Shown here one piece after another: positions 28,673 to 37,652 of a DNA stretch of 64,000 nucleotides. The first letter of the stretch is position 1. Every line of letters starts with the position of its first letter. The DNA is from Halogranum rubrum (GTDB taxonomy: Archaea > Halobacteriota > Halobacteria > Halobacteriales > Haloferacaceae), in contig NZ_FOTC01000004.1 in NCBI RefSeq assembly GCF_900114455.1, positions 151,964 through 215,963 on the forward strand. Direction: 5' to 3'. The notes beneath the pieces were generated by a model. The model had not been told where the DNA came from. It saw only the letters and a program-made list of their open reading frames with translations, and made no database searches. The position numbers and the translations under genes are program-made.

Positions 28673-28692
28673 ACCCCTAGTTGTAAGTGTAA
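28673..28692 (-). repeat. ORB-like element 1
   Basis: GTTGTAAGTGTA on the plus strand with a C-run (ACCCC) before it. Read on the minus strand: core TACACTTACAAC then GGGGT, matching the elements at the origin. It lies downstream of orc. Confidence 0.6.
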
Positions 28693-28782
28693 CTCTTCAG
28701 TAATCGGCCTGTAGTCGTCGATATCAACAAAAGACCGGGTAAGCGAAGCAAAGCGAGGCTGTCGCTAGCTTCTCGGTGGCTC

Positions 28783-28802
28783 CCCACCGAATTGTAAGTG
28801 TA
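28783..28802 (-). repeat. ORB-like element 2
   Basis: ATTGTAAGTGTA preceded by CCCCACCG on the plus strand. It has the same core and G-string order as element 1 when read on the minus strand, 110 bp further on. Confidence 0.6.
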
Positions 28803-28923
28803 TTCAGGTCTCTCAATCGTTATCGAGCGCTAATTCTGCCAGCGTGAGCGAGAAGACGAATTTTCGGAGTAAGAGTCGGTCGATAAACTACTGAGAGTCT
28901 TCTCGTAGAGAGGTCGAAACCTC

Positions 28924-28942
28924 ACCAGGTTGTAAGTGTATA
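28924..28942 (-). repeat. ORB-like element 3
   Basis: GGTTGTAAGTGTATA on the plus strand, just beyond the orc stop codon (28949). The core is conserved but the G-string is weak. Confidence 0.55.
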
Positions 28943-30211: not shown

Positions 30212-30268
30212 TTCACGCTGAACGTTACACTACGAGATAATAAACCCTCGGTTGAAAGTGTTCTAACT

Positions 30269-30283
30269 GTTGTAAGTGTTGTC
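30269..30283 (-). repeat. ORB-like element 4
   Basis: TGTTGTAAGTGTTG on the plus strand; the core matches but there is no G-string. A degenerate partner, GTTGAAAGTGTTC, occurs 20 bp before it, upstream of the orc TATA box. Confidence 0.55.
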
Positions 30284-30289
30284 GGCTGT

Positions 30290-30324
30290 TTATAACCCAC
30301 CCCCCCTCCAGATTGTAAGTGTTC
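30290..30324 (-). repeat. ORB-like element 5 with long G-string
   Basis: On the minus strand the core GGAACACTTACAATCTGG is followed by a run of eight or more G residues (plus-strand ACCCACCCCCCCTCC). This is the strongest G-string in the set and marks the left side of the unwinding region. Confidence 0.8.
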
Positions 30325-30384
30325 CACGTTTCTACGAGAGAGGTTGTCATTCTCTGGTAAACCTAGGTAGAGAGAACGTTCTTC

Positions 30385-30480
30385 TCCGATTGTTGTTGTT
30401 GTCGACTAACTAGTTACTAGTCATAACTATATTATATACCTTATGCTAAAGGAAATATAGGAAATGCTCTATTAGAGATA
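30385..30480. other. AT-rich core, candidate duplex-unwinding element
   Basis: The stretch is dominated by A and T (for example ACTATATTATATACC near 30426-30440) in an otherwise GC-rich genome. It is enclosed by inverted ORB-like elements. Confidence 0.7.
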
Positions 30481-30498
30481 GGGCGTCTATAGCACGAC

Positions 30499-30525
30499 TT
30501 TACACTTACAATCTGGCGTGTCTGA
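30499..30525 (+). repeat. ORB-like element 6
   Basis: TTTACACTTACAATCTGG followed by CGTGTCTG; the core is intact and the G-string is weakened. It faces elements 4 and 5 across the AT-rich core. Confidence 0.7.
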
Positions 30526-30595
30526 CGGTAGTCGGCCTATATATTTATATACTCAATTCTACTAACCGACTGAGGCACCATCTCGCAGAGTGGAA

Positions 30596-30621
30596 GAACA
30601 CTTACAATCTGGGGTGTGGGT
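30596..30621 (+). repeat. ORB-like element 7
   Basis: Core GAACACTTACAATCTGG followed by GGTGTGGGT. All 26 bases are identical to element 8, 158 bp away. Confidence 0.85.
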
Positions 30622-30753
30622 GTTCTGACGCCGAGAAAGAAGTTGGCAGATTCACATTTCCCGCGCTTCTTGGTTCCGACATCACGTCTCTACCATTCAT
30701 CTGAAACAGCATAACGCTGCTACGCATGGTACCAGGAGTCTTGTGAGCGTCGA

Positions 30754-30779
30754 GAACACTTACAATCTGGGGTGTGGGT
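30754..30779 (+). repeat. ORB-like element 8
   Basis: Identical over 26 bp to element 7 (core GAACACTTACAATCTGG, then GGTGTGGGT). It forms the right flank of the origin. Confidence 0.85.
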
Positions 30780-31023
30780 CTCATCGTCGACTCCGAGTTC
30801 TCTTCTTCTGTCTCTGTAGTTGATTCTCGTTTGTCGGTGAGTCCAGACTGGGTATAGTTATACACTATAGTTATTTGGTATAGGTAAAGTGGGTCCTTCG
30901 GGAACCTGCTACGATTTGCCGCTCAGGGTATGCACCGCCTCAGTGACAAACGAGACTGCGTACGACGAACAGACATTATTCCTCGAAGTAAGAATTATGT
31001 ACTCAACCGTGTAATCGTACAGT

Positions 31024-31554
31024 ATGCCCAACAGCGAGTCTCCGGATAGTCCACCGCCGTTCGAGGATGCCTTTCGTGGTGACGACGTCGAGCAGCGTAT
31101 CTACGGTACGATTCTCCAGACTCGTGAACCGACGGCGGCAAGCACCATCGCCACGCGGGCCGACTGTGACCCGAAGACTGCTCGGAAGTATCTGGGCTGG
31201 TTCACCGACCTCGGTATCGTCACACGTCACGACGGTCATCCAGCCACGTACGAGCGCAACGACGCGTACTTCGAGTGGCGCCGCATCAACCAGCTTGCGG
31301 CCGAACACTCCGTCGAAGACCTCCAGCAGCGCGTCCAAGAGTTGATGGCGCAGATCAACGACTACGAAGCGATGTACGAGGCGTCGACGCCTGCTGCCGT
31401 CGACGCCGTCGCCATCTCGGAGACGACCAATCGAACGATAGACGACGTGTACAGCGACCTCGCCGACTGGGCGACGGCGCGCGAAGAGCGCACGCGCTAC
31501 GAGCGAGCTCGCCAACAACTCGCTAGTGGCGAGACCGAGCAAGCATCCGGGTAG
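31024..31554 (+). CDS. haloarchaeal winged-helix protein with coiled coil (DUF7342-like)
   Basis: 176 residues. The N-terminal half reads as a helix-turn-helix (VEQRIYGTILQTREPTAASTIATRADCDPKTARKYLGWFTDLGIV), and a helical region follows (EDLQQRVQELMAQINDYEAMYEA). Proteins of this kind are frequent on haloarchaeal plasmids and mobile regions and are usually paired with the type of gene that follows here 8 nt later. It probably acts as the DNA-binding, antitoxin-like partner; that is inference. TATA at 30991-31000 suggests a leaderless transcript next to the origin. Confidence 0.7.
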   Translation: MPNSESPDSPPPFEDAFRGDDVEQRIYGTILQTREPTAASTIATRADCDPKTARKYLGWFTDLGIVTRHDGHPATYERNDAYFEWRRINQLAAEHSVEDLQQRVQELMAQINDYEAMYEASTPAAVDAVAISETTNRTIDDVYSDLADWATAREERTRYERARQQLASGETEQASG

Positions 31555-32645: not shown

Positions 32646-32975
32646 TTTGGCACACTGCTTGAAAATATATGATCGAAAAAGTGTCCACTGTACTCACCGA
32701 TGTGACGCTACCAACGACGATTCGAGAGCAGAGATGGTGCCAAGAGTCTACTTCTTGTCTGAGGGGGTGACTCCCGACGTGAACTACACGGCGTACTTCT
32801 ATCTCGTTTCGCTTCACTCTTAGATAGAGCTAAACTCGCAGGTTTCTGAGCCAGACCTCCGAGGCAGCTTACCAAATAAATCGAGACAGTAATCGAAAAA
32901 CGAGATGTTTACCCACTCTTGACAGATGTGCAACATTCCGTAACAACCATAAGAAAGAGCATCGTCCAACTGAGC
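32646..32975. other. 330-bp intergenic region
   Basis: It separates the leftward small-protein gene from the rightward surface cluster. Apart from the leftward TATA element near 32665-32680 I see no gene, repeat or clear operator. Confidence 0.5.
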
Positions 32976-34118
32976 ATGACTCTCTCTCTTGCGACCAGCG
33001 GGTCGAACCGAGCGACTTCGTTCGTGGCCGGGTTCGCTCGATTGTTCGGCGGCGGCGAGTCGGTGGAATACGGCCACTCTGTCACCGAAGTTTTCGCCGA
33101 CGCATCACCTACTGCGGACTACTGTGGGGCTGGAAAGGTTATCGTTCGAGCGATACTCGACTCCCTGGGTGGCAACCCCGGTGACAACGTCGTCCTCCCC
33201 GCGGCGGTCCCTCACGGCCTCGTCGAACCATTCCGTGAACGCGGTGTCGAACCACGATACCACCGTATGACTCAGCGGTTCGGGGCCGACCTTGACGACC
33301 TCATAACTCGTATCGACGAAGACACTATCGCCGTCGTACTCGTCCACTACTTCGGGTTCGAGCAACCGGACGCCGCGGCGATTCGAGAGATAGCGGCCGA
33401 CGCTGGCGTGCCTGTCGTGGAAGACAACTCTCATGCGGCGTTGAGTGCCCCCGGCGGCCGACTGCTCGGCACGACTGACGCGTTTGGGTTCACCAGCCTC
33501 CACAAGAGCCTCCCAGTTCCGAACGGAGCGGTGGTGTTCTCGGAATCGACGACAGCACTCGACGACTCGTCGTTCGGCGTCGCAGACCGACCCTCGCTCA
33601 CCGACGCATGTTTTCTCACTAACTGGATTACCAACCCCTCACTCCAACAGTCCGAAACCACCCACGAGCCTCGACCAGAGATAGCTCGATCGAACCCCGC
33701 GTCCGGTGACTGTGAGGAGACGACGTGGCCGGCCCCACCGACACCGTACGAGTCGATGCGGGCCTACGCGGCCGACGACGAACCACTGTCGTGGTTGACC
33801 GCCAAACTGCTCTCCGTTCTCTCGGCCGAGTCGATCGTCCATCGTCGCCGCGACGGATACGAACGGTGGTCGGCGACGCTTGACACCGCGCCGATGTACG
33901 ACCTCACGCCCGGTGTCTGCCCGTGGATATTCCCGGTGGTCGTCGACGACGCTTTGCAACGCGCACGAGAAGTTCCCGATGCGTTCGTGTGGCCACGACT
34001 CCCGCGTGACGTGACGCCCGACGACTTTCCCGTCGCTACCGACCTCGCACGTTCGGTTCTCGCCCTTCCCGTCGATCGTCCGAACCAAATTGCCCGACTC
34101 GCCAGCGCAGTAGAATGA
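32976..34118 (+). CDS. DegT/DnrJ/EryC1/StrS-like PLP-dependent aminotransferase
   Basis: 380 residues from the ATG at 32976. The type-I fold is visible: YCGAGKVIVRAIL for the phosphate-loop region, TIAVVLVHYFGFEQPDAAAIREIAADAGVPVVEDNSH with the PLP-ring aspartate region, and SLHKSLPVPNGAVVF with the Schiff-base lysine. Such enzymes add amino groups to nucleotide-linked keto sugars for surface glycans. The N-terminal substrate loop diverges from ordinary members, so a different amine acceptor is possible. It overlaps the flippase gene by 4 nt (ATGA). Confidence 0.78.
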   Translation: MTLSLATSGSNRATSFVAGFARLFGGGESVEYGHSVTEVFADASPTADYCGAGKVIVRAILDSLGGNPGDNVVLPAAVPHGLVEPFRERGVEPRYHRMTQRFGADLDDLITRIDEDTIAVVLVHYFGFEQPDAAAIREIAADAGVPVVEDNSHAALSAPGGRLLGTTDAFGFTSLHKSLPVPNGAVVFSESTTALDDSSFGVADRPSLTDACFLTNWITNPSLQQSETTHEPRPEIARSNPASGDCEETTWPAPPTPYESMRAYAADDEPLSWLTAKLLSVLSAESIVHRRRDGYERWSATLDTAPMYDLTPGVCPWIFPVVVDDALQRAREVPDAFVWPRLPRDVTPDDFPVATDLARSVLALPVDRPNQIARLASAVE

Positions 34119-35539
34119 GCGTCTCGTCTTCGTCGGTTCGGCTGTTCGTGGGCCGTATCGCGACGATGGTCCTGAACTTCGCGGCGCTGGCGTACTTTGC
34201 CCGCGCACTAGGGAGCGCCGACCTCGGCGTATTCTTCCTGTTTCAGGCGGCGTTGTCGATGCTCGTGTTGGTCTCAGACATCGGTCTTTCGACCGCCGTC
34301 GAGAAGCGCCTGAGCGCGGGCAGCGGCCGAAGTGTCTTCTGGACGGGGGCGATGTTGATGGGCGGTATCGCCAGCGTCCTCTCGCTCGGCCTCGTCCTGT
34401 TTCGAGACGTCGCCGCAGGGTTTCTCGGGGCCGACCTCGCACTCACACTCGTCGTCGCTCTGGGTCTCTCTGTCGCCCAACGACTCCTGAACGCCGCACT
34501 TCGCGGAGAACTCCGAACCGGCGAACTCGCGAGCCTCACTATCGCCGAGACTGCGGTCCAATACGGCGTGGCCGCAGTCCTCGTCTGGAGCGGATTGGGT
34601 GCCGAAGCGCTCGTCGTCGGGGTGCTTCTCGGACTGACCGTTTCGGACCTCTGGGCGCTGGTGAAGGTTCGTCCGGCACCTGCGACCCCGACGAAGGACG
34701 ACGCCGACTCGCTGTTGGAGTACGCGAAGTACAACGCGATACCCACCGTCGGTCTCCAGGTTCACAACTGGATGGACGTACTGATCATCGGGGTGTTTCT
34801 CGCCCAGAGCGACGTCGGAGCGTACGAGGTGGCTTGGCGTGTCGCCGGGGCGACGACGCTGCTCGCCGGCTCTATCGGTCTCGCCATCATGCCACAAGCG
34901 AGCGCGTGGGACGCCGAAGGAGCCGGAGACCGTGTGGGCCGACTGGTGAGTGCGACGTTCGTGCCGGCGTTACTGTTCGTTATCCCCGCCGTCGTCGGGG
35001 CGCTCGTCATCGGGGCCGACGGTCTCCGGCTCATCTTCGGTAGCGAGTTCGAGCGAGCCTCGCTCGTCCTCGTCGTCCTCATTGCAGGGCAGGCGCCCGC
35101 GGCGGTGCAGTCAATCGTCGGCCGGACACTGCTCGGACTGGACCGTCCGAACCTCGTCGCCCGTGCGACTATCGTCTCGATTGTGCTCAACCTCGTGTTG
35201 AACGTCGTCCTGGTCGTCCAGATCGGTCTCATCGGTGCGGCGTTGGCGACGACGCTCTCGTTCACCGTCGGGACGATTCTCCGGGTCTGGTATCTCGATG
35301 ACCTCGTTCCGTTGACGGCTCCGACTCTCGAACTCGGCTGGTGTGGGGTCGCTGCGACGGTGATGGGCGTAGTTCTCTTCGTACTCGACAGATTCGTTAC
35401 TATCGAATCGATTACTGTTTTACTCGGGTTCGTCCTGCTAGGAAGCACGATATACGGACTCGTCTTAGTTGCACACCCGTCGGTTCGTCGTACACTCCTC
35501 CGATACGCACGGTCTGTCGTTCCTGGAGTGGCTGGATAA
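34115..35539 (+). CDS. polysaccharide/lipid-linked glycan flippase (Wzx/MATE-type)
   Basis: 474 residues with about 12-14 membrane helices, starting VRLFVGRIATMVLNFAALAYFARALGSADLGVFFLFQA, the classic opening of the polysaccharide biosynthesis (Wzx-like) family. Polar residues lie mid-membrane as expected for the transport cavity. It should flip a lipid-linked saccharide across the membrane. It is translationally coupled to the DegT-like gene. No glycosyltransferase gene is present in the window. Confidence 0.88.
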   Translation: MSVSSSSVRLFVGRIATMVLNFAALAYFARALGSADLGVFFLFQAALSMLVLVSDIGLSTAVEKRLSAGSGRSVFWTGAMLMGGIASVLSLGLVLFRDVAAGFLGADLALTLVVALGLSVAQRLLNAALRGELRTGELASLTIAETAVQYGVAAVLVWSGLGAEALVVGVLLGLTVSDLWALVKVRPAPATPTKDDADSLLEYAKYNAIPTVGLQVHNWMDVLIIGVFLAQSDVGAYEVAWRVAGATTLLAGSIGLAIMPQASAWDAEGAGDRVGRLVSATFVPALLFVIPAVVGALVIGADGLRLIFGSEFERASLVLVVLIAGQAPAAVQSIVGRTLLGLDRPNLVARATIVSIVLNLVLNVVLVVQIGLIGAALATTLSFTVGTILRVWYLDDLVPLTAPTLELGWCGVAATVMGVVLFVLDRFVTIESITVLLGFVLLGSTIYGLVLVAHPSVRRTLLRYARSVVPGVAG

Positions 35540-35708
35540 CACTTACAGCGTGTCGGAGGTCTGTGAATCACGTCGATTACACCGCCTCCGAAATCCTCTC
35601 TATATCGAATCTGTTCTCCCACTAAGTCGGTAGAAGCGAACGAAACAGTGGGGAACGGTTCTATAAGAGACGTATAACAAAGCCTCTCTTGGTGGTTGTC
35701 GGAGAGGT

Positions 35709-37652
35709 ATGGTAGACAGCCTCTCAACTGCTGTTGTCGGAGACGTAGGCTTGTGTGGGTGCTTCGGCACCGAAGACCCTATCGTCCGAGACTCGCTCTC
35801 GAGTCCGAGGTGGACGGGTGCCACACGGACCGCGACTGATGACGGCGAACTCACCGTGGCGAGCACGACTCATCGGAGGATGGAGACTGACCCCCCCGCC
35901 ACCACAGCCGACGACACGGCTTCACTGTGGCTCTGGGGGACGGTCTGGGGCTACGAAGCCGAGCGGTACGTCGCGACGGACCCGTCGCGTTCGGTGGAGG
36001 TGTGTGCGGACCTCTACGACAAATACGGCACCGAATTCGTCGACCGTCTCAACGGTCGGTTTCTGGTGCTGGTCTACGACCATCTCGACGGTGATTTCCA
36101 CGTCGCCACGGATAACCTCGGCAGCCATCCTCTCTACACGGCGTCGAGTGGCGACGGCGTAGTGTTCTCGACTGACCTCCAGCATCTCGCTCGAATCGCG
36201 GACGCCCCGGTCGACGGGCGACTGATGGCGGAGTATCTGACGACGGGCCGTGTCAGTGGCTGTCTGACTCCTTTCACCGGTATCGAGGAGGTCCCACCAG
36301 GAACTGTCGAGACGTACGTCTCTGGGGAGCAGCCGACACGCCGGCGCTACTGGAAGCCTCGGTACCGACCGCTCGACAAGCCGTTCTCGTGGTTCGTCGA
36401 CCGATTCGTCGAGCGATTTCAGACGGTGATGGACGACTACAACCGCCCGGACAAGCGACACGGCGTCCTCTTGAGCGGCGGCAGCGACTCGCGCCTCCTG
36501 GTGGCGTCGCCTCCGTCGTCCGCCACCGCTTATCACATGTCCGACTGGGAGGGCCCCGAGACGCGAGTCGCAAAGCAGTCCGCAGAGATCGCCGGCGTCC
36601 CCTACGTCTGGTTACGTCGTGAACGCGACCACCACCGTCGCGCACTCGACGTCAACCCGGCGATGATGAACTTCTACGGTCGATTCGACCAGGCACACAC
36701 GACCGGCTTTCACACCAAACTCCGCGAGGAGTGTGACGTGTTGGTCTCCGGGCTGTACGCCGATACGTTCTTCAAAGGCGGGGCGATTCCGAAACAGTCG
36801 GTTCAGTTCGGCCCCCTGGGTGACTTGGACCTTCCAGTAGAGACATCCATCGAGAGCATCGAGGATTTCCTCGACGTCGTCGATCAACCGTTTCCCGAGT
36901 ACCTCTCGGAGAGCGGGTCGCTCGCAGACGTGATCCGTCCGGACCTCCGCAGGACCAGCGAGGGAATCGAGTACCGAGGCGTGTGCTACCCCTCGTTGTC
37001 GGAACTGGCGGCGTGCTGGGAGTTCTATCCGATGTCGAACGACCCCGACCTGTTCTACTACGGGTTGACGAAGACGATGCCACACTGGACCCCGTTTCTC
37101 GACAACCGTCTCATCGAACTCTCGCTGGCGATGCCGTGGCGCTACCAACTTCGACGGAACATTATCAACGCCGCACTCAGCCGTATCGCGCCGGACCTCG
37201 CCAGTATCCCCAACGCACGAACCGGTATCGCAGTCTCTTGGCCGTTCCCAATTCAGTACGCCGCTGCCCGAGCGACATCGCTCCGTCGCCAACTGCTGCC
37301 CGGCGAACCGCCGAAGCAGTACCTCGGCTACGGTCCGTGGACACCGCACGCCAAACTCCTCCAGACCGAGAGTTTCGGCATCGAGACGCTCGTCCAGAAC
37401 TGGGCGGTCATCGAGTCGCTCCCGTATCTTTCCCGCGAGGGGGTGTTGGAGTGCTACCGCGACCACATGGTCAACGGGAACCGACAGTTCGAGCTATACA
37501 TCCTCCTCGGCATGCTTCGGATGCCGCTCACCACGCATCTCGCTAAACGGTACGCCGGTCAGACATCGGTCCTCGACGACGACCACGACGGGATAGAACG
37601 GTTGCCCGAGAACTTCTCGAATATCTCTCTCGACAACGTGGAGGACCAGTGA
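35709..37652 (+). CDS. asparagine synthase-like protein with degenerate glutaminase domain
   Basis: 647 residues; TATA CGTATAACAA at 35671-35680. The N-terminal half resembles a class II amidotransferase domain (RLNGRFLVLVYDHLDGDFHVATDNLGSHPLYT) but there is no Cys at residue 2, so glutamine hydrolysis is unlikely. The C-terminal synthetase domain has the PP-loop SGGSDSR (256-262) and PFLDNRLIELSLAMPWRYQLRRNI. It should adenylate a carboxylate and add free ammonia or another amine. Homologues occur in exopolysaccharide and natural-product clusters. The stop overlaps the next ATG (TGATG). Confidence 0.82.
   Translation: MVDSLSTAVVGDVGLCGCFGTEDPIVRDSLSSPRWTGATRTATDDGELTVASTTHRRMETDPPATTADDTASLWLWGTVWGYEAERYVATDPSRSVEVCADLYDKYGTEFVDRLNGRFLVLVYDHLDGDFHVATDNLGSHPLYTASSGDGVVFSTDLQHLARIADAPVDGRLMAEYLTTGRVSGCLTPFTGIEEVPPGTVETYVSGEQPTRRRYWKPRYRPLDKPFSWFVDRFVERFQTVMDDYNRPDKRHGVLLSGGSDSRLLVASPPSSATAYHMSDWEGPETRVAKQSAEIAGVPYVWLRRERDHHRRALDVNPAMMNFYGRFDQAHTTGFHTKLREECDVLVSGLYADTFFKGGAIPKQSVQFGPLGDLDLPVETSIESIEDFLDVVDQPFPEYLSESGSLADVIRPDLRRTSEGIEYRGVCYPSLSELAACWEFYPMSNDPDLFYYGLTKTMPHWTPFLDNRLIELSLAMPWRYQLRRNIINAALSRIAPDLASIPNARTGIAVSWPFPIQYAAARATSLRRQLLPGEPPKQYLGYGPWTPHAKLLQTESFGIETLVQNWAVIESLPYLSREGVLECYRDHMVNGNRQFELYILLGMLRMPLTTHLAKRYAGQTSVLDDDHDGIERLPENFSNISLDNVEDQ

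Follow-up and report, generated by a model that had tools for sequence, protein, structure and literature searches.

The locus upstream of an orc/cdc6 gene in the haloarchaeon Halogranum rubrum carries G-string boxes in two orientations around an AT-rich stretch, which raises the question of whether it is an origin of replication and, if so, of which kind. A first-pass annotation of the window (the whole stretch of 64,000 nucleotides analysed here) had taken it for a compact origin next to orc. Judging from its sequence, the locus is very probably a replication origin of a haloarchaeon, of a known general kind and with a recognition sequence of its own. More specifically, we favour, with a probability of about 0.82, an orc/cdc6-linked origin that would form one movable module of ~2.1 kb (roughly 28.67-30.78 kb), with autoregulation and titration of Orc. 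The family membership of Orc, the co-occurrence of boxes and Orc, the kept geometry and the published criteria (PMC3528665) agree on the orc-linked origin initially proposed.

The protein encoded by the gene (Table 1) scores 389 bits against TIGR02928 (cut-off 181) and possesses intact Walker A (GQTGVGKT) and Walker B (LDEID) motifs, a lid and a C-terminal winged helix; its PDB matches (2qby_A, 2v1u_A) mark it as sequence kin of the Sulfolobus and Aeropyrum Orc1 proteins with known structure. An adjoining orc/cdc6 gene of more than 300 amino acids with AAA+ and winged-helix domains, one of the features asked for in such origins, is thus in place. Upstream of it, the exact 10-mer ACACTTACAA occurs at 30270-30279(-), 30313-30322(-), 30502-30511(+), 30598-30607(+) and 30756-30765(+), and three more exact cores lie downstream, at 28681, 28792 and 28930. 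With at most one mismatch allowed, this 10-mer has 11 matches in the 64-kb window (1.1 expected), a number equalled in none of 100 shuffles, and the 15-mer ACACTTACAANCTGG has nine matches with at most three mismatches (1.9 expected). All five exact matches to ACACTTACAANCNGG in the genome (4.57 Mb) sit at the orc locus. The array exceeds chance by far. The genome's other orc genes, of which there are at least a dozen, are all located off this contig and most have repeat families of their own; the idea that the boxes are common to them was consequently rejected.

Table 1. Features of the orc locus and its surroundings, with positions in the window; functional designations are putative.
Feature	Positions	Strand	Remarks
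Box D3, downstream, ACACTTACAACTAGG	28676-28690	-	10-mer and 15-mer matches
Box D2, downstream, ACACTTACAATTCGG	28787-28801	-	10-mer and 15-mer matches
Box D1, downstream, ACACTTACAACCTGG	28925-28939	-	9 bp past orc stop codon
orc, orc1/cdc6 family initiator, 420 aa	28949-30211	-	TIGR02928, Pfam Cdc6_lid and Cdc6_C
TATA-like box TTTATTATC of orc	30236-30244	-	from sequence; similar AT element likewise placed in relatives
Promoter tandem, 3 half-boxes of 9 bp, AACACTTAC-AACAGTTAG-AACACTTTC	30254-30280	-	stops 9 bp before TATA-like box
Box U1, proximal, long G-string	30298-30324	-	105-111 bp before orc ATG in compared loci
CTAG cluster, sites 30363, 30410, 30417	30363-30420	.	densest 60-bp CTAG window of the contig
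AT-rich core, putative unwinding element	30385-30480	.	between opposed boxes; stability profile
Box U2, distal	30499-30525	+	15-mer matches, kept geometry
Box U3, distal	30595-30621	+	96 bp from U2 (96-102 bp in compared loci)
Box U4, distal	30753-30779	+	same 27 bp as U3
DUF7342 protein, weak TrmB regulator family match	31024-31554		points away from origin, far intergenic side
DegT-type aminotransferase, polysaccharide flippase, asparagine-synthase-like genes	32919-37652		beyond origin

Five G-string elements had been described upstream of orc, two leftward and three rightward. Four of these hold as full boxes, one leftward and three rightward, while the second leftward element proved to be part of a tandem of half-boxes in the orc promoter; the pair regarded as identical, U3 and U4, does match, over 27 bp. 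The epithet 'compact' fits the upstream boxes and overlooks the promoter tandem and the three boxes downstream, so that the module, with boxes also in the orc promoter and behind the gene, is larger and better organised than first described.

This layout was compared in nine loci, namely the window, L033, L034, L035, L036, L067, L085, L086 and L090, some of which come from the same genus. In all of them the distal box pair is 96-102 bp apart, the gap between distal and near boxes is AT-rich and of variable length, the near box lies at -105 to -111 from the orc start codon, with the promoter half-sites between roughly -69 and -47, and two to four boxes of the same sense follow the gene, the first ~9-11 bp after the stop; the distance from stop to D1 is accordingly nearly equal across these loci. 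Among the loci compared, only that of Halogranum amylolyticum has, like the window, a third distal box in the orientation of U4. Order, orientation and spacing of the boxes are kept across several genera while the neighbouring genes vary, and the arrangement recurs in several archaeal families. When the window is set against H. amylolyticum, only orc and the boxes show DNA similarity in this region and the flanking genes are unlike, which led us to reject the idea that the sugar genes belong to the module.

The linkage of the boxes to their Orc was surveyed in 392 genomes of Halobacteriales. Eight of these contain the 16-mer box AACACTTACAATCNGG, and seven of the eight are exactly the seven genomes coding for an Orc of ≥65% identity (Fisher P ~3e-14, for genomes that are related and not independent). 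The box sequence is hence specific to the linked Orc family, as in published origins; an Orc found in all haloarchaea, as is typical of oriC1, is not what we see, with a ≥65% identical Orc in only 7/392 genomes. The eighth genome, G029, yielded no Orc match under the strict E-value cut-off applied, and since its boxes are spaced exactly as on the plasmid of Halobacterium sp. DL1, it is probably the same case of a split orc. On that plasmid (CP007061; L068, 4877-7540) an ISH3 transposase gene splits the cognate orc and leaves the boxes close by undamaged, which amounts to a natural knockout of the initiator right next to its origin; with orc broken and the boxes nevertheless kept, the module seems dispensable in DL1. 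A viral origin of the module was considered and dropped, as no related Orc turned up in viral contigs or phage records.

The AT-rich stretch that the first-pass annotation placed between the two box orientations is confirmed: its AT content is 70%, that of the contig 40%, and the 80 bp of lowest stability (30401-30480) in the intergenic region 30212-31023 fall within it. Counting the core itself, just four places on the contig of 253 kb reach this instability. At least two inverted G-string boxes around an AT-rich element, a further published criterion, are thus present.

The same core harbours a cluster of CTAG, a tetranucleotide that is scarce on the contig (184 observed vs 353 expected). 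In the family, 14 genomes together have 30 places with CTAG triplets, counted by hand; six of these places lie near orc genes (≤1.5 kb), where 0.36 would be expected (P ~1e-6); four of the orc-near places have three overlapping matches, and one orc-near cluster, in G249:C5, lies behind the orc gene. Inside origin cores, CTAG is in modest excess (40 vs 28 +/- 4.5 in dinucleotide shuffles); such shuffles account for most of the CTAG enrichment, and we rejected the latter as strong on its own. In three genomes of the same family, five CTAG within ~25 bp were observed ~390 bp upstream of orc matches (G000:C10:60123-60147, G389:C12:17971-17995, G326:C2:2104-2127). Some haloarchaeal origins have been reported earlier to be dense in CTAG, with its role left open (PMC5867850, PMC6471742). 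In one study of H. volcanii, CTAG enrichment was confined to a single origin, and loss of the methylase caused no growth defect (PMC5867850). Candidates for N6/N4-family methylases are present in the genome and might have CTAG as their target. That CTAG clusters in the cores of orc-linked origins act as a methylation switch gating unwinding or access of Orc is an idea we hold to be improbable; under it, m4C would be set by a conserved orphan methylase of haloarchaea and the hemimethylated state after replication would control the core. We know of no reader of hemimethylated CTAG.

The promoter of orc adds a second set of sites. The distance from the TATA-like box to the ATG suggests a near-leaderless transcript, and the tandem beside it, degenerate in sequence, includes the leftward cores at 30270 (exact) and 30252 (one mismatch). 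Two to three such half-sites, spaced by 9 or 18 bp and built on the clade's own core, occur in 14 of 14 loci, and we propose the tandem as a putative operator for Orc. No description of initiator autoregulation in haloarchaea was found in the literature searched.

The half-sites acquire particular weight from a sister clade of Orcs that share ~50% identity with this one and are encoded on plasmids of Halorientalis and Haloarcula; there the box core ACACTCGAAA replaces ACACTTACAA, both in the origin boxes and in the promoter tandem. Like the window, five of six sister loci possess a distal pair, an AT-rich gap and opposed boxes, the pair being spaced by exactly 90 bp, with the first opposed box ~210 bp further on; in all six, promoter half-sites 9 bp apart stand next to a TATA-like box. 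A change of Orc thus goes along with a matching change in the boxes and in the promoter repeats, and this is our strongest argument for recognition of both by Orc. Among the fixed differences that separate the Orcs of the two clades, the highest density is reached at residues 335-352, within the winged-helix domain (permutation P ~0.013, a modest value). Unlike the window, the sister loci have extra boxes upstream and none downstream of orc, so that the downstream part is not universal. As a separate observation, a (CTA)n-ACTAGCTAGTAG-like element lies ~48 bp inside the distal inner box of the sister origin cores L070, L071, L092, L093 and L094 and is followed by an A/T stretch; it is degenerate in L070 and L092.

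From this arrangement we infer Orc binding, unwinding, autoregulation, titration and replication activity at the locus. Orc would bind G-string boxes of its own type, of which two or three far boxes and one near box, opposed to each other, would flank the AT-rich core and lead to DNA opening and MCM loading. Earlier work states that Orc recognises boxes of this sort and shows that Haloarcula hispanica oriC1 requires G-strings (PMC3936714, PMC3528665). By binding the tandem half-sites next to its own TATA-like box, Orc would also regulate its own expression; the three downstream boxes would titrate Orc and damp initiation. The last step has a precedent in oriC2-cdc6E and oriC2D of H. hispanica (Wu et al. 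2013, PMC3936714), where, like here, the origin lies upstream and a box-rich region directly downstream; according to genetic evidence, the latter restrains oriC2, most likely by titration, and negative control by such a region has been demonstrated only for oriC2 (PMC3936714). The cognate box cluster directly downstream of orc (28676-28939) is what an oriC2-type origin should have, with three boxes here against 11 in 722 bp at oriC2D and three in the Halorubrum lacusprofundi homologue (PMC3936714). Initiator sites in the initiator's own promoter with titration sites close by also recall dnaA autoregulation and datA of E. coli, and the grouping of a methylase target within the core, should CTAG matter, recalls Dam/SeqA; the likeness to E. 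coli oriC is one of logic only, as the proteins are unrelated.

The first-pass annotation further suggested an autonomous origin that may drive the whole replicon. The contig comprises 253,319 bases, and orc is the only such gene found on it; neither tRNA genes nor a ParA-family match nor a terminal overlap was found on the contig. A single orc, no tRNA and no ParA-family match are as expected of a secondary replicon or an island, and the contig may be a megaplasmid. GC skew shows no clear extremum at the origin on the contig, and its inversion was discarded as origin evidence. On the left, the origin is flanked by oxidoreductase and IclR-type regulator genes, and the left part of this flank resembles haloarchaeal plasmid regions for sugar degradation and ABC transporters; on the right, polysaccharide genes follow. 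Acquired haloarchaeal origins often adjoin polysaccharide genes and mobile elements (PMC3528665). The module is also found on chromosomes of 3.2-3.3 Mb. Between G175:C1 (~1,928,000-1,932,000; L090, L138), a chromosome-sized contig of 3.33 Mb from the window's family, and the DL1 plasmid CP007061 (~87,000-95,000), identity is 100% across 3.9 kb of the ori-orc segment and 96-97% in adjoining stretches; the full identity over 3.9 kb shows a recent transfer. Long identical regions common to different genera are known from Antarctic haloarchaea (PMC6011602).

A rival reading is a genuine but dormant or relic origin, retained from an integrated plasmid while the replicon is replicated from elsewhere. 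Orc-linked origins with good boxes that are dormant all the same are documented; in H. hispanica, two of seven predicted origins lacked ARS activity despite good boxes (PMC3528665), which makes dormancy conceivable here. The dozen or more other orc genes of the genome, most with their own repeats, the chromosomal copies of the module and its persistence beside the broken orc of DL1 point the same way, as does the third of the three genomes of the genus, which has no close Orc homologue (best match 39%). Against this, orc is intact, boxes, promoter tandem and spacing are conserved, and the 253-kb contig has no other orc; we regard dormancy as rather unlikely.

Very unlikely, in our view, are regulator operators with an Orc acting mainly as a transcription factor, as known for Sulfolobus Orc1-2, which binds its own promoter (PMC9738581). 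The conserved half-site tandem adjoining the TATA-like box of orc would suit that role, but the exact 15-mer boxes of the genome are all at the orc locus, so that no regulon is visible; moreover, opposed full boxes on both sides of an AT-rich core, at 110-550 bp from the start codon, go beyond an operator's need, and the Walker motifs are intact. Least credible is a partition or incompatibility site of a megaplasmid with centromere-like iterons. Repeats do flank a replication gene and the 9-bp tandem is iteron-like, yet the contig is devoid of a ParA-family match, the boxes co-occur with Orc, and the layout fits published origins.

An orc-linked origin thus remains the preferred reading, and its closest counterparts are the origins of Wu et al. 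2012 (PMC3528665), which like ours have halophile-specific G-string boxes in intergenic regions beside orc, opposed around an AT-rich element and tied in sequence to the Orc family. By sequence, the locus meets the published criteria for haloarchaeal orc-linked origins, with a box family of its own. The ACACTTACAA-TCTGG-G-string core was not found in the accessible text of PMC3528665, supplementary box lists apart, and none of the genera with an intact module here is among the 15 genomes covered there; Halobacterium is, but the module copy here belongs to strain DL1, not to theirs. A literature search with the 10-mer core ACACTTACAA returned only unrelated papers among the matches listed.

For the biology of haloarchaea, the CTAG cluster touches on the function of the conserved CTAG methylase, a question that is still open (PMC6471742), and a CTAG switch, if true, would be the archaeal equivalent of Dam/SeqA. 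From the conserved promoter tandem it would seem that haloarchaeal initiators regulate their own genes. Finally, ACACTTACAA and ACACTCGAAA represent two naturally matched pairs of Orc and origin, with a common layout and a different core and winged-helix stretch, so that initiator-origin specificity may be tested by swapping a few residues between the Orc clades.
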